From Actinobacteria bacterium IMCC26103 (GTDB lineage Bacteria > Actinomycetota > Actinomycetes > Nanopelagicales > Nanopelagicaceae), in NCBI GenBank assembly GCA_002284875.1, contig CP015604.1:186001-250000 (forward strand): a DNA stretch of 64,000 bases. Reading direction: 5' to 3'. The translations under genes were made by a program, and so were the position numbers. This document shows, piece after piece, positions 22,767-38,795 of the stretch. The notes beneath the pieces are model-generated. The model was not told the DNA's origin. It made no database searches and saw only the letters and a list, made by a program, of their open reading frames with translations. The first letter of the stretch is position 1. Every line of letters starts with the position of its first letter.

Positions 22767-23774
22767 TTATTTTTGTGCATTTATCCAAGTAATGGTTTTA
22801 GAGAGTCCGTCATCAATATTTGTAAGGTTCGCAGTAGGCGAAATTTTATTAATCTTCGTCAAATCTAGCCAGACATCATTTGGGGCGCTACCTAGAAAAG
22901 TTTGTGAGGTGGGAGGTATTTCTAGCTTTGCACTTGTAATTAAGGAAACTTTAGCCGCTAATTCTGCGATTGAGAGTCTTGAAGTTCCTCCGACATTATA
23001 GATTGGTTCGCTCCCTTTTTTAATTATAGCAAGCATCATTTCAATCGCATCGAGAACGTAGCAATATGTCCGCATGGCAGATCCGCTGTCTTTTAAGGTA
23101 ATTTTTTTTCTCTCTACGGCCATCTTTATGAAGTCGTATAAAACCCTAGAGTCACTTTCTTTTATACCGGGGCCGTAAGCTAGAGCGAGCCTCGCGGAAA
23201 AGCCGACTATCTTTTTTTCAGAATACTTTAGATTGGCAACGATTGTTTCGCCCAATCTTTTGCCCTCGATATATGGAGCTCTCTCATGATCGGTATTAGT
23301 AGTTCCAACTTGATCTTCGCGAAACGGTGGCTCACTTAGTCCTGAATAAATTTCTGAAGTACTGACAAACAGAAATCTTCCTGAATTGTTTAATTTTTCA
23401 GTCAACTTCTGAGTGACTATGGAATTTAGCTCCATAGTTTTCGTTCTATTTTCCAAAAACTTACCTGGTTGCCCATACCCCGAAGCATGGATAATCAAGT
23501 CGAAATTGGGGAAGGATTCGAGTAGCTCTAAATCTGTTAGGTCTCCTTTAAGGACAACCGTATTTTCACTTATGGGTACGGTGAAAAAACCTGAAAGTGA
23601 AGATGCATACAACTTAATTTGTCCATTTTTAAATAAATCCAATTTTTGAAAAAACGTCACAAAATAACTGCCTAATAATCCACTTGCTCCAGTTACTAGA
23701 ATAGTTTTCTGGTTGAAATACTCTTCATTCTCCTTAGTGATCAGGCTTTCAACGTCTAGTTCAATTTGATTCAT
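22767..23774 (-). CDS. NAD-dependent epimerase/dehydratase (SDR), sugar nucleotide type
   Basis: A 335-residue extended SDR with an N-terminal extension of about 24 residues before TILVTGASGLLGSYF. The active-site region is FLFVSTSEIYSGLSEPP, then Tyr and Lys in APYIEGKRLGE. The later ARLALAYGPGIKESDSRVLYDFI and GSAMRTYCYVLDAIEMM resemble UDP-glucuronate decarboxylases and 4,6-dehydratases. Specificity cannot be assigned; the UXS block NFACPASP is replaced by IIHASGYGQPG. It overlaps the transketolase C-subunit by 14 bases, so it is tightly coupled to it. It probably prepares or finishes the sugar handled by the transketolase pair. Confidence 0.75.
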   Translation of the reverse strand: MNQIELDVESLITKENEEYFNQKTILVTGASGLLGSYFVTFFQKLDLFKNGQIKLYASSLSGFFTVPISENTVVLKGDLTDLELLESFPNFDLIIHASGYGQPGKFLENRTKTMELNSIVTQKLTEKLNNSGRFLFVSTSEIYSGLSEPPFREDQVGTTNTDHERAPYIEGKRLGETIVANLKYSEKKIVGFSARLALAYGPGIKESDSRVLYDFIKMAVERKKITLKDSGSAMRTYCYVLDAIEMMLAIIKKGSEPIYNVGGTSRLSIAELAAKVSLITSAKLEIPPTSQTFLGSAPNDVWLDLTKINKISPTANLTNIDDGLSKTITWINAQK

Positions 23775-24651
23775 TGTTTATAATTTCTGTAATTCGGTGC
23801 TTTAGACTTTCTGAATCGAGCTTTAAATACTCGAGCTGCTGGCGGTAACTTCCATATTTTCTGATGAATTTCTTCGGCACACCTATCTGATGGATTGAGT
23901 ACCCCTTTGATGCAAATGTTCCAACTGTGCTTTGAAGAAGTTGACCTGAATAATACGGCTCAATCAGGATTACGGTTTTGGAGTCATTTCTAACGTCAAT
24001 CTTTATTTCATGTTCTGAATCGAAGCTGTTTACGTAATGCACTTCAATATCTAGGTGTGGTGCGATTTCCAATAGTTCATCTAGGATAGGACCTACCGCA
24101 ATAACAATTGCATCACTTCCGTCCTGAATTTTTTTAGCTGCACCAAATTGCAATTGAAAGGGCTCTCGGTTTTTACTTTCCGAGAGTCTGAAGTAGTTTA
24201 AAAAGCCATTATTCCATTCTGCGCGATACATACTGGCAAACTCATCCGGGTGACCTGGTATGTAAATCCGGGATCCAGGTATGTTTGATATTAAGTTGAC
24301 ATCAGCTGGACAGTGATGGGTACACCCAAGAGCCGCATAATCAAATGAAGCACCTACGCTTACGAGGTTCCCAGGTAATGATTGGTAACCAAAATCGACC
24401 TTAATCTGCTCGTAAGCGCGTTCAACTATAAATGGAGCGATTGTATGTACTGTCGGTATTACTCCTTCGGAAGAAAAACCTGCGGCCATGCTTATCATGC
24501 TTTGTTCTAGGATCCCAATATTAAATACTCGATCAGGATAACTTGAAAGTGCGTTCCTAAATCCGAAAACTCCGATATCTCCTAAGAACAACGAAGATTG
24601 CCTGTTTTCTTCCAACACCGAGCTAGCAACTTCAACAAAGGTTTTTCTCAT
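23761..24651 (-). CDS. transketolase-like protein, C-terminal subunit
   Basis: 296 residues, equal to the pyrimidine-binding and C-terminal domains of transketolase as a separate polypeptide. Visible features are LFLGDIGVFGFR, RVFNIGILEQSMISMAAGFSSEG with the conserved glutamate that activates the ThDP aminopyrimidine, and THHCPADVNLISNIPGSRIYIPG. The last third is the C-terminal domain (KTVILIEPYYSGQL). It overlaps the N-subunit by 4 bases. Split transketolases occur in archaea and in many sugar clusters. Its place in a glycan island beside sugar SDRs suggests a dedicated two-carbon transfer rather than central metabolism. Confidence 0.88.
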   Translation of the reverse strand: MRKTFVEVASSVLEENRQSSLFLGDIGVFGFRNALSSYPDRVFNIGILEQSMISMAAGFSSEGVIPTVHTIAPFIVERAYEQIKVDFGYQSLPGNLVSVGASFDYAALGCTHHCPADVNLISNIPGSRIYIPGHPDEFASMYRAEWNNGFLNYFRLSESKNREPFQLQFGAAKKIQDGSDAIVIAVGPILDELLEIAPHLDIEVHYVNSFDSEHEIKIDVRNDSKTVILIEPYYSGQLLQSTVGTFASKGYSIHQIGVPKKFIRKYGSYRQQLEYLKLDSESLKHRITEIINNESN

Positions 24652-25427
24652 ATTAAGTCAATCTTTAATTCATTTACCTGATCAGATTTGGGACTTAAAT
24701 GGTGCCAAGCAGGATTGTTTTCCATCGCTTTCAATCCAAATCCTTTAATTGTGTAACCGAGGATTGCAGTGAGCGTGTTTGATTTAGACATTTCAAGCGC
24801 TTCATCAATCTGTCTTAAATCATTACCATCTACTTCAACACATTGATATCCGAAAGCTTCGAATTTCGCCTTCACATCACCAAGTGCCAGAGCGCGGTCA
24901 CTTGAATGATTTAAGTCTACTAGAACGACAAGTTCATGAACATTATGATGAGATGCCAAGAGCAGGCTTTCCCAAATAGTTCCTTCATTCATTTCTCCAT
25001 CGCCTATAAGGCAATATACCTTTTTCCCATCCTTAGAGACCCTGCTTGCCATCGCTTTTCCGAGTGCGAAAGGCAACCCGTGTCCTAGCGATCCGGTCGA
25101 TGCACAGACTCCTGGAATTTTATTGGAATCTGGATGTCCACCATAATCACTATCGAAGTTCGCAAAATTAACTTTCCATTCCCCTCCAATAAATTTTGCC
25201 TCTTCCAAAACTGCATAGAGTGCTAATGATGCGTGTCCTTTGGATAGCACAAAGTCGAATTTAACTTTATTGTCAATATTCCAATTGCCACAATAGATTG
25301 AGTAGATCATTTCCAGAACAGAAAATGCACTCGGTATATGTCCCTCTTGTGAGACGGCTGAAGCTTCAAGAATGTCTCCACGCATTCGTTTTAGAATGTC
25401 TCTTGAGTCTTGAAGATTACTGGTCAT
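24648..25427 (-). CDS. transketolase-like protein, N-terminal (ThDP pyrophosphate-binding) subunit
   Basis: 259 residues. SQEGHIPSAFSVLEMIYSIY and FVLSKGHASLALYAVL match the transketolase N-terminus. GHPDSNKIPGVCASTGSLGHGLPFALGKAMA is the substrate and cofactor entry, and LIGDGEMNEGTIWESLLLASHHNVHELVVLVDLNHS is the GDG-x26-N ThDP motif. It pairs with the next gene to form one active transketolase. It opens the cassette 25427-19982 with a TACAAT hexamer 6 bases before the ATG. The donor ketose and acceptor are unknown. Confidence 0.9.
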   Translation of the reverse strand: MTSNLQDSRDILKRMRGDILEASAVSQEGHIPSAFSVLEMIYSIYCGNWNIDNKVKFDFVLSKGHASLALYAVLEEAKFIGGEWKVNFANFDSDYGGHPDSNKIPGVCASTGSLGHGLPFALGKAMASRVSKDGKKVYCLIGDGEMNEGTIWESLLLASHHNVHELVVLVDLNHSSDRALALGDVKAKFEAFGYQCVEVDGNDLRQIDEALEMSKSNTLTAILGYTIKGFGLKAMENNPAWHHLSPKSDQVNELKIDLI

Positions 25428-30083: not shown

Positions 30084-31604
30084 TCAGTTGCTTTGCACAT
30101 TTAGTTTGTCTACTATCCGTTTCGAAACATCTATATCAAATGGAGAATTGTAAACAAGACTGTATGATAGTTTTTCAAGTATTAAATGTAATTCTGATCG
30201 TCTGTCTCGATTCAATAGATTAACGAAAAAACTTTTTGAAGACTTCACTTCCGATCTTGATCTTTTCAATTTGCTAGTACTTGGCCCAACAGACATTTGA
30301 GGGCATATCTCGTAAATCGGGCGATTTTTCTTGGCGCTTAATAGAAGGATTACAAGTGCTTTTTCTTTTTCTTGACTATTGAGTATTTCTACACCTGAAA
30401 AAGAAGAGTTATTCAAATCGTTCAACGTTACTCTCTTCGCCATCCATTCGGGGTAAGTCCCCCCGAAAACTAATGACTTAAAGCCTGCAGCAGCCGTTTC
30501 AAGAGCGATAGTTCCAGAGTAAGTGAAGACAATCCTTTTCTCTTTTAGTATCTGGGCTGTTGAGGGTACATCATTAAAACATGTTGGTTTAATTCCGAAC
30601 GTTTGAGCTAGCCGGTCGATAATCTCAATTTCGTCTGGATACTGAGTTGAGCTTGGATGAATTTTTATTTTCCAATTCTCTTGCTCTTTACCAATTTTTT
30701 CGAACATTTTTTTAGTCCATATAAAGTAGTCATCTGATTCCAGTATGAAATTTTCTTTTTTATTGGGAAGTTCACGAGAGGCGTCACGAATGCAATGAAG
30801 CATTAGTACTTTAGCATCATGTGCCACGCCGTTTTGAGATTTCTGTTTATAAGCCTTAATTGCTTCCCGATCTGATTTCAATTTTCCTTGCTGACGATCA
30901 GAAAAATACTGTTTTGCTAGTTTTACTAATTCATTTTTGGCGCTGATGTTTAAGTTATCATATTCAATGCAAAGTTCATCAACAGTTTTTGTCTGAGAGG
31001 GATATCTTTCCGAAGAACTAACATCCAGAAGTTGACCATGTGGGTTTAGAATGAATACCCGTTTATTTCGCCGTTTAGCATAAAAATGAATAGTTCGATT
31101 AAATGTGTATGCCAGATCAGGCAGAAAAAAAACTTCAAACTCTTCAACAATCTGTCGCGCATGCTCATGTGATTGCCTTATTCTTGCCATAACTTCTGAA
31201 GTGTATGGTGATATTTCAAAATACTCATCTGAATTACACCTCCTACGGTAGTCATCAGCCATGCCTCGCCATATTTCATAACCGTATCCAAGCTCAATCA
31301 GGCCACTAATCTTTTCCTCGTAACTGTAACTTTTCACATCTTCTTGAATTTCCATTCTTGCCTGCGGATCAATTATTTTTACGTCACTAGAAAATTTAGA
31401 AGTGGAGTCTAGTAGTACTGCGAAAATCGTATGTAAAGTTCTGCAGTCATTGGTACTGTACGGTAGAAAGACAATTCTCTTCTTGCGAATTTCAGGGTGC
31501 TCGTTTCGATTAATATTTCGACAAGCGAGTTTCACGGTCATCCGGCTCAAAAATAGAGCCGCTTTCCAATTTAATCTAAAAAATATTTCGTTAATCGTCA
31601 CCAT
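30084..31604 (-). CDS. capsule-synthesis-like glycosyltransferase (KpsC/KpsS or LipB-like)
   Basis: 506 residues, cytoplasmic. RIVFLPYSTNDCRTLHTIFAVL opens a first Rossmann-like half. The second half has WKIKIHPSSTQYPDEIEII, IVFTYSGTIALETAAAGFKSLVFGG and EWMAKRVTL, matching the H-P and S-G-T-x-x-x-E blocks of the capsule polysaccharide synthesis family (Pfam Capsule_synth), whose characterised members transfer CMP-Kdo or related sugars. Since it closes the operon making a CMP-nonulosonate, it is the natural candidate transferase for that sugar. The last ~100 residues are basic and not recognised. The start overlaps the SDR gene by 7 bases. Confidence 0.65.
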   Translation of the reverse strand: MVTINEIFFRLNWKAALFLSRMTVKLACRNINRNEHPEIRKKRIVFLPYSTNDCRTLHTIFAVLLDSTSKFSSDVKIIDPQARMEIQEDVKSYSYEEKISGLIELGYGYEIWRGMADDYRRRCNSDEYFEISPYTSEVMARIRQSHEHARQIVEEFEVFFLPDLAYTFNRTIHFYAKRRNKRVFILNPHGQLLDVSSSERYPSQTKTVDELCIEYDNLNISAKNELVKLAKQYFSDRQQGKLKSDREAIKAYKQKSQNGVAHDAKVLMLHCIRDASRELPNKKENFILESDDYFIWTKKMFEKIGKEQENWKIKIHPSSTQYPDEIEIIDRLAQTFGIKPTCFNDVPSTAQILKEKRIVFTYSGTIALETAAAGFKSLVFGGTYPEWMAKRVTLNDLNNSSFSGVEILNSQEKEKALVILLLSAKKNRPIYEICPQMSVGPSTSKLKRSRSEVKSSKSFFVNLLNRDRRSELHLILEKLSYSLVYNSPFDIDVSKRIVDKLNVQSN

Positions 31605-32380
31605 ACAGATCTTCCACCATCTACTGGAAGGGCCACCCCTGTAACAAAATCAGACATATCACTAAGTAAGAACTGTATAGACGAATTCAAATCTTTCGTT
31701 GTCGCTAATCTGCCCATAGGCGTCCTTTCAACCAATCTCCTTCGGAAATTTTCTGAGAAATCTGTGTCCACTGGGCCAGGACAAATACAATTTACTCGTA
31801 TTCCTTTAGGCCCAAAGTACGTCGATAGGTACTTCGTCAGACCAATTAATCCAAACTTCTCGAAACTGTAACTTGGGGGCTTTAAACTACATTGAGCTTT
31901 GTGCATTTCTGGTGAGCCATTGCAATTGCAATAAATCCTTTGATCCGGACTAATTAATGAGAGGTCGCTCCCGACTAGGACGACTGAACTGTACTCTGAG
32001 AGTAGATCTTCGAGCTCGGAAACCAGATTTAAAGTCCCCGAGTAAGTTAAAGAAATTGATTCCAAGTCCTTACTAAAATTGAAATCACTCAAGCGGGTGT
32101 TATTCCCGAGAGAATCTATCGTAGGATTGATCGCTGCAAGATTTACTATTCCTGTAACATTGTCAGTTTTTGACTTTATCTCAGATAGTGCCTGCTTTAC
32201 TTGAGCTTTATCAGTTATATCGCATTCAAACTTGTTTTCGCCAGGTTTATTATTCAAGTCTAGTTGATAAACGGTTGCACCTTGATTTTCTAGGCTTTGG
32301 ACCAAGGATTCACCGAGCATCCCTTTCGAACCTGCAACAACAATATGTTTCTTATTTAATATTTTTAGTTTTCTATCCAT
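31598..32380 (-). CDS. short-chain dehydrogenase/reductase (FabG/PtmA-like)
   Basis: A 260-residue classical SDR. Cofactor loop VVAGSKGMLGESL at 14-26, LDLNNKPGENKFECDITD (acidic NAD-selective region), NLAAINP, the active Ser in VLVGSDLSLISP, the YxxxK pair in SYSFEKFGLIG, and IRVNCICPGPVDTDF. An insert of about 20 residues with three cysteines (IYCNCNGSPEMHKAQCSLKP) lies between the Ser and Tyr, which is unusual for the family. SDR plus Gfo/Idh plus cytidylyltransferase is a recurrent trio in nonulosonate and flagellin-glycan clusters such as Ptm. The exact substrate is unknown. Confidence 0.82.
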   Translation of the reverse strand: MDRKLKILNKKHIVVAGSKGMLGESLVQSLENQGATVYQLDLNNKPGENKFECDITDKAQVKQALSEIKSKTDNVTGIVNLAAINPTIDSLGNNTRLSDFNFSKDLESISLTYSGTLNLVSELEDLLSEYSSVVLVGSDLSLISPDQRIYCNCNGSPEMHKAQCSLKPPSYSFEKFGLIGLTKYLSTYFGPKGIRVNCICPGPVDTDFSENFRRRLVERTPMGRLATTKDLNSSIQFLLSDMSDFVTGVALPVDGGRSVW

Positions 32381-33407
32381 GGTTTTTCCTCATATTGCTT
32401 GCCGCTTGGATAAAGCCATCCACTTTGATCGCATCTGCAATACCGGCGGCTTTTATTTCTTCAGAACTAAGCGTATTTAAAAGTTGATGAAGCATTTCCT
32501 TAAATTGATCGTCTCTACTTGTTTCTGCGAAATTGAATGACTTTACGCCTCTTGACTTATCAATAATGTCTAATTTTTGTTTCAGCCAATCCCATTTCAT
32601 TCTTCCACCTTTGAACATTAACTCACCACCCCGTTGTGACGGCCATCCTATGAAATCGAAATCCAGTTGTGCGGTTAATTTACTTCTTTCCTTGGATTCA
32701 CAAGTAACCCTTTGAAAATCTGGAGTTGAAATTTGTAGATCGCTCTTCTTAGATTCTCTGTATTCAACTATCTTCATCTCGCCAAACAGACACATAACAA
32801 TGTCTATATCGTGAGAAAAGCAGCTTAACGGATCTCCTTGCTGATCGACATTACCCATGTGACTAGTTCTGTAATCCTCATATGGATGCATAGACTCTAA
32901 ATTCTCACTAAACCAAGATTTATAGGAATATATGTCCTCTGGATTGATTAAAGCTATTTCAAATTTCAACTTTTGCAGTAATTTTGAATATCTTGACTGA
33001 AAAGACATAAATATATCGTTTTGTCGTGATTCAAAAATGTCGCTATTGTTATGGTGGATTTGTTCGCTTGAATTCATTCCCGATAATGGTTTTTCAATCA
33101 GTATTTTTCTTGAATTGGTAAAATTGCAAACATCAATCAAATCTTGTTTGTGCAAATGAATTGGACTCGCAATAATCGATAAATCCAATGATTTTGGTAG
33201 TTCATTGAGGTTCGAAACTTCAATAATTCCATAAATAATTGTGGGATCTGCTAAAGAAGAAGACTGCAAAGTTGAGTCAATCAACTCAATTCTTTTACGT
33301 CGCCTTATTGTATAAAGTCTCAAATCATCGCCATACGTATCACGAAGCAATCTTGCGTATCTCTGGCCGATGGAACCAAGTCCATAAATGAATACATTGT
33401 AAGTCAC
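32373..33407 (-). CDS. Gfo/Idh/MocA-family oxidoreductase
   Basis: 344 residues. The N-terminal NAD(P) fold reads MTYNVFIYGLGSIGQRYARLL. LSIIASPIHLHKQDLIDVC and ILIEKPLSGMNSSEQ follow, with the family EKP motif whose lysine is catalytic. The C-terminal half is the alpha/beta substrate domain with SCFSHDIDIVMCLFG, where a His-Asp pair sits in the GxHxxD position. Members oxidise or reduce sugars and nucleotide sugars. It abuts the neuA stop and overlaps the next SDR gene by 8 bases. It probably makes or modifies a precursor of the nonulosonate, which is inferred from context. Confidence 0.85.
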   Translation of the reverse strand: MTYNVFIYGLGSIGQRYARLLRDTYGDDLRLYTIRRRKRIELIDSTLQSSSLADPTIIYGIIEVSNLNELPKSLDLSIIASPIHLHKQDLIDVCNFTNSRKILIEKPLSGMNSSEQIHHNNSDIFESRQNDIFMSFQSRYSKLLQKLKFEIALINPEDIYSYKSWFSENLESMHPYEDYRTSHMGNVDQQGDPLSCFSHDIDIVMCLFGEMKIVEYRESKKSDLQISTPDFQRVTCESKERSKLTAQLDFDFIGWPSQRGGELMFKGGRMKWDWLKQKLDIIDKSRGVKSFNFAETSRDDQFKEMLHQLLNTLSSEEIKAAGIADAIKVDGFIQAASNMRKNHG

Positions 33408-34154
33408 TTATGACCCGTACCTTTCCTCGTCAATCTGATTGAATTTTCTTTCGGATATTGAATTGTCAAGCCTAATAAAATCTTCCACGTAATCAATATC
33501 AACATTACTCTCTTGTGGGCTATGTATTGCCGTAATTTTGTACTTGTGTTCGGGGCATTTACTCATGTAATAACATGGCCGAATTATGTCAACGTAGCCG
33601 TCTTGCCAATATGTTTGCGGTAGAATCTGTCTAGGGTTATTGAACAAATCCTCCTCTAAGGTTCCCAATACTGGCTCCATTACCTTGTCTTCCGAAACAT
33701 TCCACATTTTGTATGGTGTCTCTGTGGAAGGTTTAACTGATCTTGCAAAACAAGAGTTTTTGGTTTCCACAAACTCTTCGATGGCTCCATCCAAAAAAGC
33801 TGCATTACGATGCGGGTTAGTTGGACGAAGAAAAACAAGAATCTTGGGTTTAGCGCCTCGATTTTTCAACATCCAATCAAAAAAGTGCTCAATTACAGGT
33901 CCATCCTTAGTTAAATCTTGGGCGAGTGAAACGGGCCTTAAGAATGGCACCTCGGCACCAAAATGCCGGGATACTTCCGCTATTTCGGCATCCTCTGTGC
34001 TTACGTTTACGCATTTAATTAAATTGCATTCGAGCGCGGTTTTAATGGTGTGCGCCAATAGAGGTTTGCCCATTAAACTTTGTAAGTTTTTTCTTGCTAT
34101 CGATTTTGAGCCCCCTCGCGCCGGGATGAGGCTAACAATTTCCTCTACTGCCAT
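33408..34154 (-). CDS. neuA: CMP-N-acylneuraminate (nonulosonate) cytidylyltransferase
   Basis: 248 residues. SLIPARGGSKSIARKNLQSLMGKPLLAHTI at 8-37 is the CTP-binding signature of acylneuraminate cytidylyltransferases. VSTEDAEIAEVSRHFGAEVPFLRP and VFLRPTNPHRNAAFLDGAIEEF follow, and WQDGYVDIIRP lies in the C-terminal part. It activates a 3-deoxy-nonulosonate with CTP. The sugar may be Neu5Ac, Kdn, legionaminate or a relative; the sequence alone does not say. It overlaps the phosphatase gene by 10 bases, consistent with sequential steps of one pathway. Confidence 0.9.
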   Translation of the reverse strand: MAVEEIVSLIPARGGSKSIARKNLQSLMGKPLLAHTIKTALECNLIKCVNVSTEDAEIAEVSRHFGAEVPFLRPVSLAQDLTKDGPVIEHFFDWMLKNRGAKPKILVFLRPTNPHRNAAFLDGAIEEFVETKNSCFARSVKPSTETPYKMWNVSEDKVMEPVLGTLEEDLFNNPRQILPQTYWQDGYVDIIRPCYYMSKCPEHKYKITAIHSPQESNVDIDYVEDFIRLDNSISERKFNQIDEERYGS

Positions 34155-34654
34155 TTCTTATCCAAGCAAATTAGGTCTGAAACTTCTCTAATCACTCCGT
34201 TTCCACCTTTGCTATTTAAGAGATACTTTGCAACCTTTTTTATCTCTGAATTCGCGTCCTTGGGACAGGCGGTATAAGTTAAAATTTTCATAATTGCCAA
34301 ATCATTAATTTCATCACCGATGTAAAAAATTTCGTCGGAGGAAATCCTTTTTTTGGTTTGTAGGTTTGTTACGAACTCAAGCTTATCAAGTACATTAGTG
34401 TAAGCAGTAATATTCAATTTCTTTGCTCGGTGTTTTACCGAATTGTTCGCTTCCGATGAAAGAATAATCACATCTATCCCGTTCTTCTTAAGCAATTTAA
34501 CACCTATGCCGTCAAGACGGCTACAAGTTACCGATTCGAATCCTTGTTCCGAAATTTCAACTTTTCCATCAGTCATTACTCCATCAAAATCCGAGATTAC
34601 AAGACTGATTTTAGAGAAATCTGCCCTTGCCTTAAATAAATTGAGCTTTTTCAT
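34145..34654 (-). CDS. KdsC-like HAD phosphatase (nonulosonate-9-phosphatase-like)
   Basis: 169 residues, the compact capless HAD fold. VISDFDGVMTDGKVEI carries the nucleophile Asp22 and acid/base Asp24, IILSSEANNSV is motif II, and DEIFYIGDEINDLAIMKI provides the Mg-binding acidic residues. The family removes phosphate from Kdo-8-P or acylneuraminate-9-P. Its presence next to a NeuB homologue suggests a phosphorylated route (hexose-6-phosphate plus PEP to a nonulosonate-9-phosphate), unlike the non-phosphorylated bacterial Neu5Ac route. It overlaps the pyruvyltransferase gene by 23 bases. Confidence 0.88.
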   Translation of the reverse strand: MKKLNLFKARADFSKISLVISDFDGVMTDGKVEISEQGFESVTCSRLDGIGVKLLKKNGIDVIILSSEANNSVKHRAKKLNITAYTNVLDKLEFVTNLQTKKRISSDEIFYIGDEINDLAIMKILTYTACPKDANSEIKKVAKYLLNSKGGNGVIREVSDLICLDKKWQ

Positions 34655-35741
34655 AAAATTCCGATAGTTTGTTTTTTTCCCCGATTATTGCTCGGTCTTG
34701 ATCGCTAAAGTTGAATCTTTCCGTCATTACGTTGTCTAGAAAACTTTCGCATTTTTTCGATATATTTTCATCGTTTAATTCAACGATTTGCTTTTCTAAT
34801 TTTAGATTACTCATATAGGTTTTCATTCTATTTTGAGTTGAGATCACCAATGTAGGTATACGCATTCCTAGTGAAGGGCTCAAGGAGTGTACGCGCATGG
34901 CGATAACAGCGCGAGCTCCGTGATAATGATTGTAGATCTGCATGTGATCTTCGAATCCCGGCATTGATAAAACTCTTACTTTTTTGTGCAAAACTCCAAC
35001 CTTTAGTCTCTTACAAACCATCAGGATCATTTCATAATCCTCAAAAGAATGTGGAACAAATACTATTTTTTCATTTATATTTTCAGCGAAAATCTCACAA
35101 CAGCCCACTAGCGTTTGAATTATTCGTTCTAGTTTTTTGGGGTCTTTGTATCGGTTGACGCTATCTTCATAATTTACGCTTATAAACAGATCTTTTCCTA
35201 AATCATTAAATCTAGGTGAACAGACGAAGAAACCCGGATCAGGGCATTCCGGCATGTTCTCCATTTCTTCGCCCAGTAGGTTCTCTAGCCACGCTTTAGT
35301 TCCATCATTTCTTAATCCAATTAGGCAATCATCTCTTGAATTTAGATAACTCAAAGTTTGTAATAACTGATCCTTGTTTGGATAGATGCCGTCACTCCAG
35401 AATCTATAGGATAATCCGTGTGCAATTATCGGTACTCTAATTTTGTCCAAATCTTGGGCTGTGAAATTCAGCCTAGAGCCGCCTTTTTTATGATCCTCCC
35501 TCCCGTTGAATGTCACAGCACCTGGGATCAGTAATAGCTCGCTCTCGTTAACTTTCTGATAGAAATCATCTCGAAATATGCTGTCCGCGAATGTTACTTG
35601 GTCCCAAGAATAGAAACTAGGAGAGATTTTATTTTTGGGATTTACTATTGAAATGGAGTTCAATGTTCCGGTAACGAGTGCGCCATTTCCAACATTAGGG
35701 CTTTGAATATTAGCAAGAACTAGCGCTTCTATTTTTCTCAT
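34632..35741 (-). CDS. polysaccharide pyruvyltransferase-family protein
   Basis: 369 residues of the CsaB/WcaK family, which transfers pyruvate from PEP to sugars as ketals. It has NIQSPNVGNGALVTGTLNSI (N-x-G-N/D-x-A-L block) near 11-30, LLLIPGAVTFNG (V-G-G-x-x-x-x-D position), VPIIAHGLSYRF, VFVPHSFEDY and the conserved Arg-His in AVIAMRVHSLSPSLGMRIPTLVIS. It begins inside the stop of neuB. Both NeuB and this protein use PEP. Pyruvyl ketals give the glycan negative charge, matching the acidic nonulosonate. Confidence 0.82.
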   Translation of the reverse strand: MRKIEALVLANIQSPNVGNGALVTGTLNSISIVNPKNKISPSFYSWDQVTFADSIFRDDFYQKVNESELLLIPGAVTFNGREDHKKGGSRLNFTAQDLDKIRVPIIAHGLSYRFWSDGIYPNKDQLLQTLSYLNSRDDCLIGLRNDGTKAWLENLLGEEMENMPECPDPGFFVCSPRFNDLGKDLFISVNYEDSVNRYKDPKKLERIIQTLVGCCEIFAENINEKIVFVPHSFEDYEMILMVCKRLKVGVLHKKVRVLSMPGFEDHMQIYNHYHGARAVIAMRVHSLSPSLGMRIPTLVISTQNRMKTYMSNLKLEKQIVELNDENISKKCESFLDNVMTERFNFSDQDRAIIGEKNKLSEFYEKAQFI

Positions 35742-36619
35742 TACTTAAAGTCATCTACTCGTCGTAGCTTTCTCATGTTTTCAACTTCAATATCTAAAAT
35801 TCGTTTTTCGGGACTACCATCAAGATCGCTGCATTCGTTTATATATGAAATCAATTTTCTTGATCCAGATAACTCTAAACTCGCCGACTGATCCGATCCC
35901 CACATCGATCGATCTAGAGTGATGTGTCTTTCAACTACGCAGGCTCCATATTTAGCTACTGCAATTACGCTCGGTAAGACTCCAACTTCATGTCCGGAAT
36001 ATCCAGCGTTTAGATTGAAGGTCTTTCTTAGCGTCTCAATCACAGCCAGATTCAGGTCGGCATTTTTTGCTGGGTACGTAGAAACGCAATGTAAAAGGAT
36101 AATCTTGTCGTGGCCGATAGTCTCAATAGCACGCCTAATTTGATCAAGTGTGCTCATTCCGGTAGAAAGAAACACGGGCTTTCCGGTAGATCCTATGGCT
36201 TTCAGCAAACTCGCGTCAGTCAGACAAGCACTCGCTACTTTATGTGCGATTACGTTTAAACGTTCTAAAAAATCAACACTTGGGACATCCCATGGTGACG
36301 CAAACCAGTCGATGTCATTTGACTTGCAATAATCGGAAATAATCTTGTATTGAGATTCGTCAAACTCAAGACCGTATTTAAGATCACCGTTAGTTTTTCC
36401 GAAAACACTCTCTCGAGGCTTACTCAAATCCTCTGCTGTATAAACTATATCCACCGTACGTTTCTGAAATTTTACAGCGTTATATCCAGCGTCTAACGCC
36501 TGGTCGATTAATCGGAGAGCATTTTCTAGTGAACCGTTGTGGTTTATTCCAATTTCCGCAATTGTATAAACTTTTTCATTCTGACCACAGGTAGAACTTC
36601 CAACTTGGATATTTAACAT
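35741..36619 (-). CDS. neuB: NeuB-family nonulosonate synthase lacking the C-terminal SAF domain
   Basis: 292 residues. It has the full (beta/alpha)8 barrel: YTIAEIGINHNGSLENALRLI near 18-38, AVKFQKRTVDIVYT, FASPWDVPSVDFLERL, KVASACLTDASLLKAI, VFLSTGMSTLDQI, LLHCVSTYPAKNADLNL, GYSGHEVGVLPSVIAV and VVERHITLDRSMWGSDQSASLE. These include the metal-binding His and the PEP/substrate Lys and Glu residues. It stops at NMRKLRRVDDFK, just where the usual antifreeze-like SAF domain (about 55 residues) should begin. In known NeuB dimers SAF closes the partner active site, so this enzyme must manage without it or borrow one. The reaction is PEP plus hexosamine, or hexose 6-phosphate, to a 3-deoxy-nonulosonate. 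Confidence 0.9.
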   Translation of the reverse strand: MLNIQVGSSTCGQNEKVYTIAEIGINHNGSLENALRLIDQALDAGYNAVKFQKRTVDIVYTAEDLSKPRESVFGKTNGDLKYGLEFDESQYKIISDYCKSNDIDWFASPWDVPSVDFLERLNVIAHKVASACLTDASLLKAIGSTGKPVFLSTGMSTLDQIRRAIETIGHDKIILLHCVSTYPAKNADLNLAVIETLRKTFNLNAGYSGHEVGVLPSVIAVAKYGACVVERHITLDRSMWGSDQSASLELSGSRKLISYINECSDLDGSPEKRILDIEVENMRKLRRVDDFK

Positions 36620-36628
36620 TTAAGAATT

Positions 36629-37201
36629 TTACCTTTCTTCGACAAGATTTTCAATCTCCTGGCAAAAGAAGTGCATTAAATTCACATGGATCTCTTGAAT
36701 TCTTGATGTATTTCTGACATTCGGAGAAATTAGAATATCTGGGGGAAATTTAAAGTTAGCAACGGCGCTTTCTGATGTGAACGCAACACTTGGAATATTC
36801 TCGATTTTAGCCACTTCAATTAACCGATTAATGTTTTCTGATCTTCCGCTTGTCGTAAAGACTAGTAGCATCCCACATAGTTTCGAATAAGCGGAAAATT
36901 CACGGGCAAATTGGTCAGAAAATTCATAGTCATTCGCCCACGCTGTTGATACGGCAGAATTTACTCCAAGAGTTAGAACAGGGAATGCTCGATGCTGGCG
37001 CGTAAAGAAATTTACTAATTCACCGCTTAAATGTTGGGCATCAGACATTGAACCGCCGTTGCCTGCTACTATGATCAATTTGTTATTTTGGATTACTTCA
37101 ACGGCTAATTCAATGGCCCTATGCATCTCAGTAGCAATATTTACGGCCTTGGCTGCAGCCAGATTTTCAATGGTTTGGTCAAGATACTCAGACAACTCCA
37201 T
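36629..37201 (-). CDS. SIS-domain sugar-phosphate isomerase (GmhA/DiaA-like)
   Basis: 190 residues. The signature IVAGNGGSMSDAQHLSGELVNFF at about 43-65 is that of GmhA-type phosphoheptose isomerases and DiaA. LTLGVNSAVSTAWANDYEFSDQFAREFSAYSKL, VFTTSGRSENINRLIEVAK and the C-terminal RIQEIHVNLMHFFCQEIE (metal-binding His/Gln helix) complete the fold. It opens the eight-gene operon, 9 bases before neuB. Two roles are possible: supply of a heptose or hexose phosphate to NeuB, or an unrelated heptose branch; no other ADP- or GDP-heptose gene is visible. Confidence 0.88.
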   Translation of the reverse strand: MELSEYLDQTIENLAAAKAVNIATEMHRAIELAVEVIQNNKLIIVAGNGGSMSDAQHLSGELVNFFTRQHRAFPVLTLGVNSAVSTAWANDYEFSDQFAREFSAYSKLCGMLLVFTTSGRSENINRLIEVAKIENIPSVAFTSESAVANFKFPPDILISPNVRNTSRIQEIHVNLMHFFCQEIENLVEER

Positions 37202-37257: not shown

Positions 37258-38079
37258 ATGATAAAACATGATTATTTACATCAATTTGAGGAAAATGGCC
37301 TTTTTAGGGTTGACGGTTTGCTTACAAACACAGAAGTTGAAACTTTAAGAATTTTGGTTGACGAGCTCATGACAGGGAAAAAATCGCTTGCCGGTATGTT
37401 TTTCCAACGTGATCCAAATTCATCTGATTATCAAGATGTAACTTTTGATCAAACTGTATTTAGTGGACCTTCACTGAATTACAGAAAGATAAAGGATTTA
37501 GAGTACATCCCCGAGTTTTTGGCTGCTGTACAGAATAAACAAATTAAATCAATTTCTAATTTACTTATTGGCGAAGAAGTTTCCGCGATGCGTACGATGG
37601 TCGTAAATAAGCCTTCTCGGTCCAAAACACCTTTGCCATGGCACCAGGACATCTCTGCGAGTTGGCCGATGTCGATGCCACCTATCCTAACCGTATGGAT
37701 TGCCTTGGATGAGGTTGATGAAGAGAATGGCTGTGTCGAGTGGTTGTCTGGTAGCCATAAACTTGGTGAAATTGACGGTGGACACTTAACGTCTGAATCA
37801 AGCATGACGGATCTATTATCCAAACACGAGGTAATAAAAGGAGTATTAAAACCAGGTGATGCAATTGTGTTTGATAACGGAGTTATTCATAGGTCCAATC
37901 CAAATTTATCTGGCAGGCGCAGGAGAGGTTTGACCATTTGTCTAATGCATGCTGAGACTTTCAATACCAAAACTAATACCTTTTATCCAAAAATTTTCGG
38001 ATTAGATGCGTTGACTCCCCAGGAAGTAAGCACCTTAGCTCATGTACCACTTAATCGACCGATTGATTATGGAGAGTAA
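37258..38079 (+). CDS. phytanoyl-CoA dioxygenase (PhyH)-family Fe(II)/2-oxoglutarate oxygenase
   Basis: 273 residues. Iron ligands are visible as His129-x-Asp131 in PWHQDISASWP and His211 in NGVIHRSNPN. An arginine cluster just after (GRRRRGLTICLMH) provides the 2-oxoglutarate carboxylate contact. LTVWIALDEVDEENGCVEWLSGSHK is the conserved PhyH core. It is transcribed divergently from the nonulosonate operon with a 56-base shared promoter region, so hydroxylation of a sugar or acyl group of that pathway is plausible; the family is very diverse and this is inference. It marks the right end of the AT-rich island. Confidence 0.87.
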   Translation: MIKHDYLHQFEENGLFRVDGLLTNTEVETLRILVDELMTGKKSLAGMFFQRDPNSSDYQDVTFDQTVFSGPSLNYRKIKDLEYIPEFLAAVQNKQIKSISNLLIGEEVSAMRTMVVNKPSRSKTPLPWHQDISASWPMSMPPILTVWIALDEVDEENGCVEWLSGSHKLGEIDGGHLTSESSMTDLLSKHEVIKGVLKPGDAIVFDNGVIHRSNPNLSGRRRRGLTICLMHAETFNTKTNTFYPKIFGLDALTPQEVSTLAHVPLNRPIDYGE

Positions 38080-38097: not shown

Positions 38098-38742
38098 TTA
38101 ATCCAGGACCACTGAACCGTTTGGAGTGCTCAAGTGAACGGAAACTATTCCGGTTTCGCCATCTTGGGTTGATGGGTCTACCCAATCAATTTCAACTTTA
38201 TCGAGTCCATTGAGGATTTCAGTCTTGAACCAAGAATCAGAAAGCTGATCTTTGTCTGCAATAACAATTTTTTCGATCTTTGAAACAGTTAAACCATCCT
38301 TTGAAGGATGATCTTCGGTTAGCCACTGGATGAAGAATGGAAGTTCGCGCGATTCTTCAATTTCCTTAACACCAATTTGCTTCCACTTAAGATCGGTTCC
38401 ATCTGGACGTGTGCGGTGACCATCCACTGCTTTGCGACCAAACTTTTCTTCGATTGGTGAAATATCTTCAGTGCTAAATACCCAAGTAAGCCATCCGCCG
38501 CCTTCCTGTGCTTTCTTTGAAACGGCTTTGCCCCAAGGAGTTTGTTCTGTCGCTGGGTGATCTAGCGGACAAACAACTTCTATGTATTTTCCATCGAGAA
38601 GTGGCGCTGTGAAGTTACGTGTACCAAAACGTGGGTGGATACCGCCATCAACAAATGTTGTTCCAAGGCGTGAACCTAGGCGTTGCACGGTGTCGGCTAA
38701 TTGATCATGGGAAGTTACATATGAGACATGGTCTAAGCGCAT
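38098..38742 (-). CDS. VOC/glyoxalase-like domain protein
   Basis: About 214 residues from ATG at 38742, where CAAAAT sits 6 bases upstream. An in-frame ATG at 38760 would add six residues. MRLDHVSYVTSHDQLADTVQRLGSRLGTTFVDGG opens a Glyoxalase_3-type module, with NFTAPLLDGKYIEVVCPLDHPA providing a Glu metal-ligand position and a second half with FFIQWLTEDHPS. Enzymatic role unknown; related actinobacterial proteins are uncharacterised. It follows the secreted hydrolase gene by 53 bases on the same strand and is convergent with the PhyH gene. Its base composition is like the core, not the island. Confidence 0.75.
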   Translation of the reverse strand: MRLDHVSYVTSHDQLADTVQRLGSRLGTTFVDGGIHPRFGTRNFTAPLLDGKYIEVVCPLDHPATEQTPWGKAVSKKAQEGGGWLTWVFSTEDISPIEEKFGRKAVDGHRTRPDGTDLKWKQIGVKEIEESRELPFFIQWLTEDHPSKDGLTVSKIEKIVIADKDQLSDSWFKTEILNGLDKVEIDWVDPSTQDGETGIVSVHLSTPNGSVVLD

Positions 38743-38748
38743 GGAGTT

Positions 38749-38754
38749 ATTTTG
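38749..38754 (-). promoter_or_regulatory. possible -10 hexamer of the VOC gene
   Basis: CAAAAT on the minus strand, 6 bases before ATG at 38742. Confidence 0.35.
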
Positions 38755-38795
38755 CACCATAAAAAGGGGTGCTCTTTACCAAATATTGAGCGGTA

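Follow-up and report, generated by a model that had tools for sequence, protein, structure and literature searches.

The operon and its proposed product

Which sugar acid is made by an operon that unites a synthase of the sialic acid type, an isomerase of the heptose type and a phosphatase? The question is raised by a minus-strand operon of Actinobacteria bacterium IMCC26103, at positions 30084–37201 of the stretch of 64,000 nucleotides analysed here (hereafter, the window), which comprises bases 186001–250000 of a single-contig, 1,456,516-base genome of 99.99% completeness, presumably that of a freshwater actinobacterium of the acI type. An earlier note, made from the sequence alone, described eight genes here that overlap or nearly touch, and the open reading frames bear this out, in the same order, with junctions, from the first to the last gene, of +9, -1, -23, -10, 0, -8 and -7 bases (Table 1). 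Family scores and related loci elsewhere show that the operon is real and exclude chance.

Judging from the gene families and motifs, it is reasonably probable that the operon makes a 3-deoxy-2-ulosonic acid activated with cytidine monophosphate (CMP), by a phosphate route, for a surface glycan; the phosphate route as such is likely. In the proposed pathway, each step of which is a prediction, the SIS-domain isomerase (SIS) would turn a ketose phosphate into an aldose phosphate of manno configuration. An ulosonate phosphate would then arise by condensation of this sugar with phosphoenolpyruvate, catalysed by the NeuB synthase, which lacks the SAF domain (SAF-less). The KdsC-type phosphatase would strip the phosphate and NeuA would attach CMP. 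The Gfo/Idh/MocA-type oxidoreductase (Gfo) and the short-chain dehydrogenase/reductase (SDR) would tailor the sugar or its precursor, as in legionaminic-acid clusters, while the pyruvyltransferase and the product of the last gene would act on the glycan.

As to the product, we give somewhat less than an even chance to an acid of the type of 2-keto-3-deoxynononic acid (Kdn), made from mannose 6-phosphate through Kdn-9-phosphate; a ten-carbon acid is rather unlikely, and some other acid is less likely again. The ten-carbon acid would come from heptose 7-phosphate.

Table 1. Genes of the operon, in order of transcription, with their positions in the window
Gene product	Position	Strand	Supporting match
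SIS-domain isomerase, GmhA type, 190 aa; proposed aldose phosphate maker	36629..37201	-	SIS_2 61 bits
NeuB-type 3-deoxy-ulosonate (phosphate) synthase without SAF, 292 aa	35741..36619	-	NeuB Pfam 238.7 bits
Polysaccharide pyruvyltransferase family protein, 369 aa	34632..35741	-	PF04230 (PS_pyruv_trans) 54.3 bits
KdsC-type HAD phosphatase, 169 aa; proposed ulosonate-phosphate phosphatase	34145..34654	-	TIGR01670 109.4 bits
CMP-ulosonate synthetase, NeuA/PseF/LegF type, 248 aa	33408..34154	-	CTP_transf_3 61.7 bits
Gfo/Idh/MocA-type oxidoreductase, 344 aa, GTG start, PtmF-like position	32373..33407	-	PF01408 22.7 bits
SDR oxidoreductase, 260 aa, PtmA-like, SPDQRIY motif	31598..32380	-	PF13561 121.2 bits
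Last gene, 506 aa; possible surface-glycan transferase	30084..31604	-	Role inferred from place and a stretch read by eye

The NeuB synthase

The genome encodes a single NeuB. The protein stops after the barrel and has no C-terminal SAF domain, which, together with the lack of NeuC in the genome, sets it apart from the canonical NeuB acting on free N-acetylmannosamine. It carries the motifs KFQKR, RESVFG, GYSGHE and ERHITLD, and its residues K50, K127, S130, S208, H210, H232 and D243, which we take to be catalytic, are invariant across 28 aligned rows. An AlphaFold model made with 28 sequences (mean pLDDT 95.2) also ends after the barrel, and the structures nearest to it are 6ncs, PseI and meningococcal NeuB. 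Comparison of the model with a virus structure library returned distant barrels, the best of them a phage NeuB-like protein of 15% identity, and phage records gave three NeuB matches, the best at 42.5%.

Relatives of this NeuB were drawn from genomes, plasmids and viral contigs; at least 534 viral-contig stretches were confirmed to encode such relatives, and 80 of them (L088–L167) were kept. The SAF domain was scored as a C-terminal tail of at least 40 residues, and removal of identical rows left 104 SAF-less NeuBs, a few of which are fragments (L084, L064), and 29 NeuBs with SAF. The motif K[FLIVM]QK is present in 101 of the 104 SAF-less NeuBs vs. 3 of the 29 with SAF, a pooled count that is biased because one of the patterns used to seed the viral scan (EIGINHN and [NDQ]AVKFQK) contains KFQK. 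The pooled counts for GxSGH are 89/104 (four have N, 11 are unmatched) vs. 6/29 (22 have D), and those for the RH[IF]T type 83/104 (19 unmatched) vs. 1/29 (12 unmatched). When the rows from the viral scan are left out, KFQK is found in 30/31 SAF-less vs. 3/25 SAF NeuBs, GxSGH in 28/31 vs. 6/25, and RH[IF]T, with R before H, in 27/31 vs. 1/25. By its motifs, the window NeuB belongs to a large SAF-less group from which most SAF NeuBs differ. The animal synthase of N-acetylneuraminic acid (Neu5Ac) 9-phosphate shares the motifs of this group yet carries a SAF domain.

A regular expression applied to the loop after KFQK separates the SAF-less NeuBs into class A, which includes the window protein (77 NeuBs; VY..E.L...RES.[WF]G and relatives), and class B (27 NeuBs; TPWGxMTY), an actinobacterial set with about 50% identity to the window NeuB. 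A tree built from 68 selected rows places the SAF rows on one side of a branch with support of 75/99 and class B in one group apart from L082, which has the B loop but sits among A rows; the loop classes were therefore rejected as clean clades. The SIS-linked rows of this tree are scattered yet over-clustered (8 changes, a number reached or undercut in 3 of 500 shuffles). Of 296 genomes of the family, five besides that of the window have a SAF-less or truncated NeuB (G437, G640, G618, G639, and G522).

The phosphatase and a possible link to Kdn

The KdsC-like phosphatase named in the earlier note scores above the cut-off of the KdsC subfamily model TIGR01670 (109.4 vs. 106.95 bits), and its best NCBIfam match, below the cut-off of 180, is the Kdn-9-phosphate phosphatase model NF058599 (115.3 bits). 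It keeps E56, R64 and K67 of BT1713, a Kdn-9-phosphate phosphatase of solved structure, whose sequence is identical to PDB entry 3e81; we take these three to be the specificity residues. Positions 56 and 67 are R and A in the phosphatase of 3-deoxy-D-manno-octulosonic acid (KDO) 8-phosphate 3n07, R and E in the hypothetical protein 2p9j, and E and K in 3mmz, and 4hgq carries A at position 56. At positions 56 and 67, the window protein lacks the residues of the KDO-8-phosphate phosphatase and has E and K instead. All three residues are kept in 23 of 26 KdsC domains from loci with a SAF-less NeuB; the exceptions are L141 and L142, which look identical and have V at position 64, and L053, with G at 56 and A at 67.

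A KdsC gene lies within 4 kb of 19/27 class B but 4/77 class A NeuBs (outside viral contigs, 2/9 of class A), and a further KdsC domain is present in L084. KdsC is thus the normal partner of NeuB in class B, while few of the fetched class A pieces have the pair. In 20 class B neighbourhoods, KdsC was found in 19 and is joined with NeuA in one open frame in 15, and SIS was scored in none. These sets resemble the window in their NeuB, KdsC residues and NeuA, while the window differs by separate NeuA and KdsC genes, the other loop class and the presence of SIS. The class B NeuBs occur in many actinobacterial genomes, some of 6–11 Mb, presumably including those of Streptomyces. According to parts of two sources, Streptomyces walls contain a Kdn polymer (PMC11481543, PMC7831098), and as the assignment of these genomes to Streptomyces is itself a deduction, the link of class B to Kdn is indirect.

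Among the closest known systems are the pathways by which Bacteroides thetaiotaomicron (BT1713–1715) and Prymnesium parvum, the latter described in passages of PMC6200933, make Kdn-9-phosphate. Like the window, they have a synthase acting on a phosphorylated sugar, a CMP-synthetase and no NeuC, and BT1713 shares E56/R64/K67 with the window phosphatase; the window, whose substrate is predicted, differs by the added GmhA-type isomerase, the pyruvyltransferase and the Gfo-SDR pair. The same passages provide a precedent for the phosphate route, namely the making of Kdn-9-phosphate from mannose 6-phosphate in Prymnesium, where, within their scope, no phosphatase homologue was found. A second precedent is a NeuB-phosphatase fusion in Leptospira, mentioned in a part of PMC3438082.

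The logic of the window operon is also that of the KDO pathway. This pathway, KdsD-KdsA-KdsC-KdsB, likewise combines an SIS isomerase, a phosphoenolpyruvate-dependent synthase, a HAD phosphatase and a CMP-transferase, but the window has a synthase of the NeuB type, phosphatase residues unlike those of 3n07 and an isomerase of the GmhA type.

NeuC, aminotransferase and the NeuA-Gfo-SDR trio

The lack of NeuC, which the earlier note reported for the operon, extends to the whole genome, where Epimerase_2 gave no match, although the same search was positive in 11 of 14 control genomes. Among 31 chosen genomes, Epimerase_2 was found in five: 2/13 family genomes with a SAF-type NeuB, 2/12 class-level genomes with a class B NeuB, and one more considered below. 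The aminotransferase of the pseudaminic/legionaminic pair is also missing from the window: two DegT queries, which matched 38 fetched loci, found none there, the 4,6-dehydratase not having been searched by profile.

These results bear on the idea that the operon belongs to a legionaminic, pseudaminic or Neu5Ac pathway with its precursor genes elsewhere in the genome, which we regard as very improbable. The NeuA-Gfo-SDR trio would fit it, since parts of PMC4481668 describe a Plesiomonas legionaminic cluster in which PtmA, LegF and PtmF (a 326-aa oxidoreductase) adjoin in the same way. The genome, however, has no Epimerase_2 and the window no DegT (searched there only), LegB, LegH and PtmE were not seen among the open reading frames, and NeuB, besides lacking SAF, has the motifs of the other set.

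Of the trio members, NeuA reaches 127 bits with the PseF model, below the cut-off of 205.7, and Gfo is slightly below the PF01408 cut-off of 24. Weak Gfo relatives lie near NeuA and SDR in L055, L060, L143 and L172, and relatives of the SDR, many with a PDQR.Y motif, occur near nonulosonate genes. The trio as such recurs in L055 and L060, more loosely in L143, and in Azospirillum thermophilum (L172) beside LegB, LegC, NeuC and a nucleotidyltransferase, though Gfo scores only 22.9 bits there. As it accompanies both kinds of NeuB, its probable target is a shared precursor or some feature that the two sugars have in common. The proposal that the oxidoreductases work upstream, in the supply of the aldose, needs correction in that they need not do so, as the trio is also present in legionaminic-acid clusters (PMC4481668, in part).

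The isomerase and its possible part in the supply of the sugar phosphate

The SIS protein is the sole SIS_2 match in the genome. It keeps the GmhA active-site positions H61, E65, Q172 and H180 (numbering of E. coli GmhA and roles as we understand them), and R69 is replaced by F. The same four positions are kept in 12/12 NeuB-linked SIS proteins, the window protein included.

With a threshold of at least 60 bits and a distance of up to 4 kb from NeuB, SIS neighbours were scored for 12/77 class A, 0/27 class B and 1/29 SAF NeuBs, the SAF case being the second NeuB of L002 and hence not independent; outside viral contigs, the counts are 6/9, 0/22 and 1/25. In the family, NeuBs with SIS within 1.5 kb, midpoint to midpoint, are those of G437, G640 and G522. 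The presence of SIS near a SAF-less NeuB recurs in Actinomycetota, in one gamma- and one alphaproteobacterial contig and in viral contigs.

Other relatives of this isomerase keep different company. The SIS query had matches in 15 of the 296 family genomes, eleven of them at about 1e-16 or better, and seven of these eleven loci are not beside a SAF-less NeuB. Relatives of the heptose genes GmhB, HddA or HldE are present in six of the seven; the exception, L188, is a contig of 4.65 kb, and in L190 they (a GHMP kinase and a weak HAD) lie about 6 kb from SIS. The heptose-gene names, first assigned by eye, were then tested against NCBIfam: for ten proteins of L186, L187, L189, L191 and L192, the best matches, below equivalog cut-offs, were the heptose models, i.e., heptose 1,7-bisphosphate phosphatase (or the related histidinol-phosphatase domain), heptose 7-phosphate kinase and HldE. 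The window resembles these cassettes in the SIS type and active-site residues and differs by having NeuB instead of GmhB/HddA/HldE relatives. No such relatives were found in the window or in the fetched NeuB-linked SIS loci, two of which (L079, 3.2 kb, and L080, 5.5 kb) are so short that this absence tells little, and the GmhB model, which scores the GmhB relatives of the five cassettes, has no match in the genome.

The SIS tree mixes NeuB-linked with heptose-linked proteins, and the window SIS groups with heptose-linked L186 (85/78). A NeuB-specific SIS clade was rejected (4 changes, as low in 207 of 500 shuffles). All this is read most simply as a single stock of isomerases used for heptose activation in some loci and for NeuB in others. 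NeuB would receive a heptose 7-phosphate if SIS has retained its specificity, which would lead to a ten-carbon product.

In such a route, which we consider possible but doubtful, SIS would be a true sedoheptulose 7-phosphate isomerase (GmhA) and NeuB would use D-glycero-D-manno-heptose 7-phosphate to form 3-deoxy-dec-2-ulosonate 10-phosphate, to be turned by KdsC and NeuA into CMP-deculosonate. Besides the interleaving in the tree, the six of seven heptose-linked loci and the lack of heptose-activation genes in the window and in the fetched loci where SIS stands with NeuB, this is favoured by a transaldolase (PF00923) directly ahead of SIS, NeuB and NeuA in a viral contig (L143:6633-8825) and by a split transketolase about 4.7 kb past the window operon. 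On the other side, a literature search by such names met no ten-carbon ulosonic acid, the majority of SAF-less NeuBs lack an SIS within 4 kb, the window SIS has F in place of R69, and KdsC keeps the residues of the Kdn-9-phosphate phosphatase; the shortness of L079 and L080 also lessens the value of the missing heptose genes. That the operon makes the first ten-carbon sialic-acid-like sugar, by chemistry shared with freshwater, marine and viral NeuB-SIS sets, appears to us a little more doubtful still.

The other source of substrate to be considered lies outside the operon. No bifunctional phosphoglucose/phosphomannose isomerase (PGI/PMI) and no type I PMI were found in the genome, which holds a lone PF01050 cupin, similar to type II PMI, and a GDP-mannose 4,6-dehydratase (GMD). 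Their presence led us to drop the idea of SIS as the sole source of mannose 6-phosphate as a proof; Kdn might be made without SIS, which is no more than a candidate mannose isomerase. If the cupin supplies mannose 6-phosphate, a dedicated SIS would be superfluous for Kdn, a point in favour of the ten-carbon route. It also fits a further, unlikely explanation, that SIS remains from a heptose cassette once exchanged into the island and does not feed NeuB, and that mannose 6-phosphate made by the cupin is turned into plain Kdn. A gene at the edge of the genomic island, related to genes near both heptose and SAF-NeuB cassettes (see below), would agree with such an origin, but SIS is the first gene of the operon, nine bases ahead of NeuB, and its recurrence near SAF-less NeuBs in the two proteobacterial contigs and three other family genomes speaks against a remnant.

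Several points weigh against our preferred reading, in which the isomerase feeds a phosphate route. The SIS protein scores far under the equivalog cut-offs of GmhA models (TIGR00441, 97.9 vs. 209.45 bits) and is a long branch in the SIS tree. The Fisher p values for SIS by NeuB class are 0.033 (A, B) and 0.11 (A, SAF), with kinship uncorrected. SIS within 4 kb is missing for 65/77 and KdsC for 73/77 class A NeuBs, most of these on viral or short contigs, so neither gene is obligatory in class A, and most of the 26 KdsC domains come from class B loci. Mannose 6-phosphate may be available without SIS. Epimerase_2 is present in one (G640) of the six genomes with a SAF-less or truncated NeuB, the window genome included, and 11/13 family genomes with a SAF-type NeuB are also without it, so the absence of NeuC alone discriminates little.

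Taken with these points, the earlier interpretation is partly supported. Its view that NeuB acts on a phosphorylated aldose agrees with the SAF-less motif kind, the Kdn-9-phosphate phosphatase residues and, as weak evidence, the missing NeuC. The isomerase as a supplier is plausible, given its recurrence near SAF-less NeuBs without heptose-activation genes, while the oxidoreductases are not required as co-suppliers.

Remaining genes and genomic setting

The pyruvyltransferase has weak relatives in L072 and, next to a SAF-less NeuB, in L131. The label of a capsule-type glycosyltransferase given to the last gene found no support: in Pfam its product stays under the cut-off (E 0.094 for the best model, DUF4890), searches of NCBIfam and PHROGs gave no match and those of the PDB no meaningful one, plasmids held no relative, and a single-sequence structure model (pLDDT 31.7) is uninformative. 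A likeness to a 639-aa protein of L084 was rejected (E 0.16).

The GC content of the window is 38–40% up to 36 kb and 46–50% past 40 kb. Seven further fetched loci also have the edge gene found here at 38098-38760; SAF-NeuB genes are close by in five of them (L056, L058, L061, L063 and L083) and heptose genes in the remaining two (L191 and L192). The island edge looks like a swap site for surface-sugar cassettes, which makes a remnant SIS conceivable. Promoter-like and terminator-like sites in the window are fewer than in shuffled sequence.

A PhyH-type dioxygenase gene (37258-38079) adjoins the operon. One is also present beside a SAF-less NeuB set in L172 (11815-12564), and L084:2666-3553, near a SAF-less NeuB, has only a weak PhyH match (E 0.0025). 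The split transketolase lies in the same island at 23761-25427. Similar transketolase pairs are found in L057, L094, L116 and L124, and one is annotated near NeuB in L173.

Occurrence in plasmids and viruses

SAF-less NeuBs with the motif set of the window protein are common, as the 104 distinct rows, some of them fragments, indicate. Three plasmid relatives bear an annotation as N-acetylneuraminate synthase or its family, whereas the motifs and phosphatases point to phosphorylated substrates rather than to the annotated function. If this is true, "sialic acid" annotations would in many cases, in viruses as in environmental genomes, concern Kdn-like or new acids. The window operon may yield Kdn or else an acid of ten carbons that has not been described so far, and the SIS-NeuB pairing bears on whether ten-carbon ulosonic acids exist.

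Many of the 80 kept viral stretches sit with NeuA and SDR genes, and viral ulosonate sets look common. In the viral contig L095 (2633-10061), the piece that encodes NeuA, NeuB and SIS also has genes of a phosphoenolpyruvate mutase (PF13714) and of an iron-alcohol-dehydrogenase-like protein, a hint of a phosphonate joined to an ulosonate. A pair of proteins with the nucleotidyltransferase fold, read by eye, is encoded near a SAF-less NeuB in L002 (12987-15108) and L090 (5369-7451).

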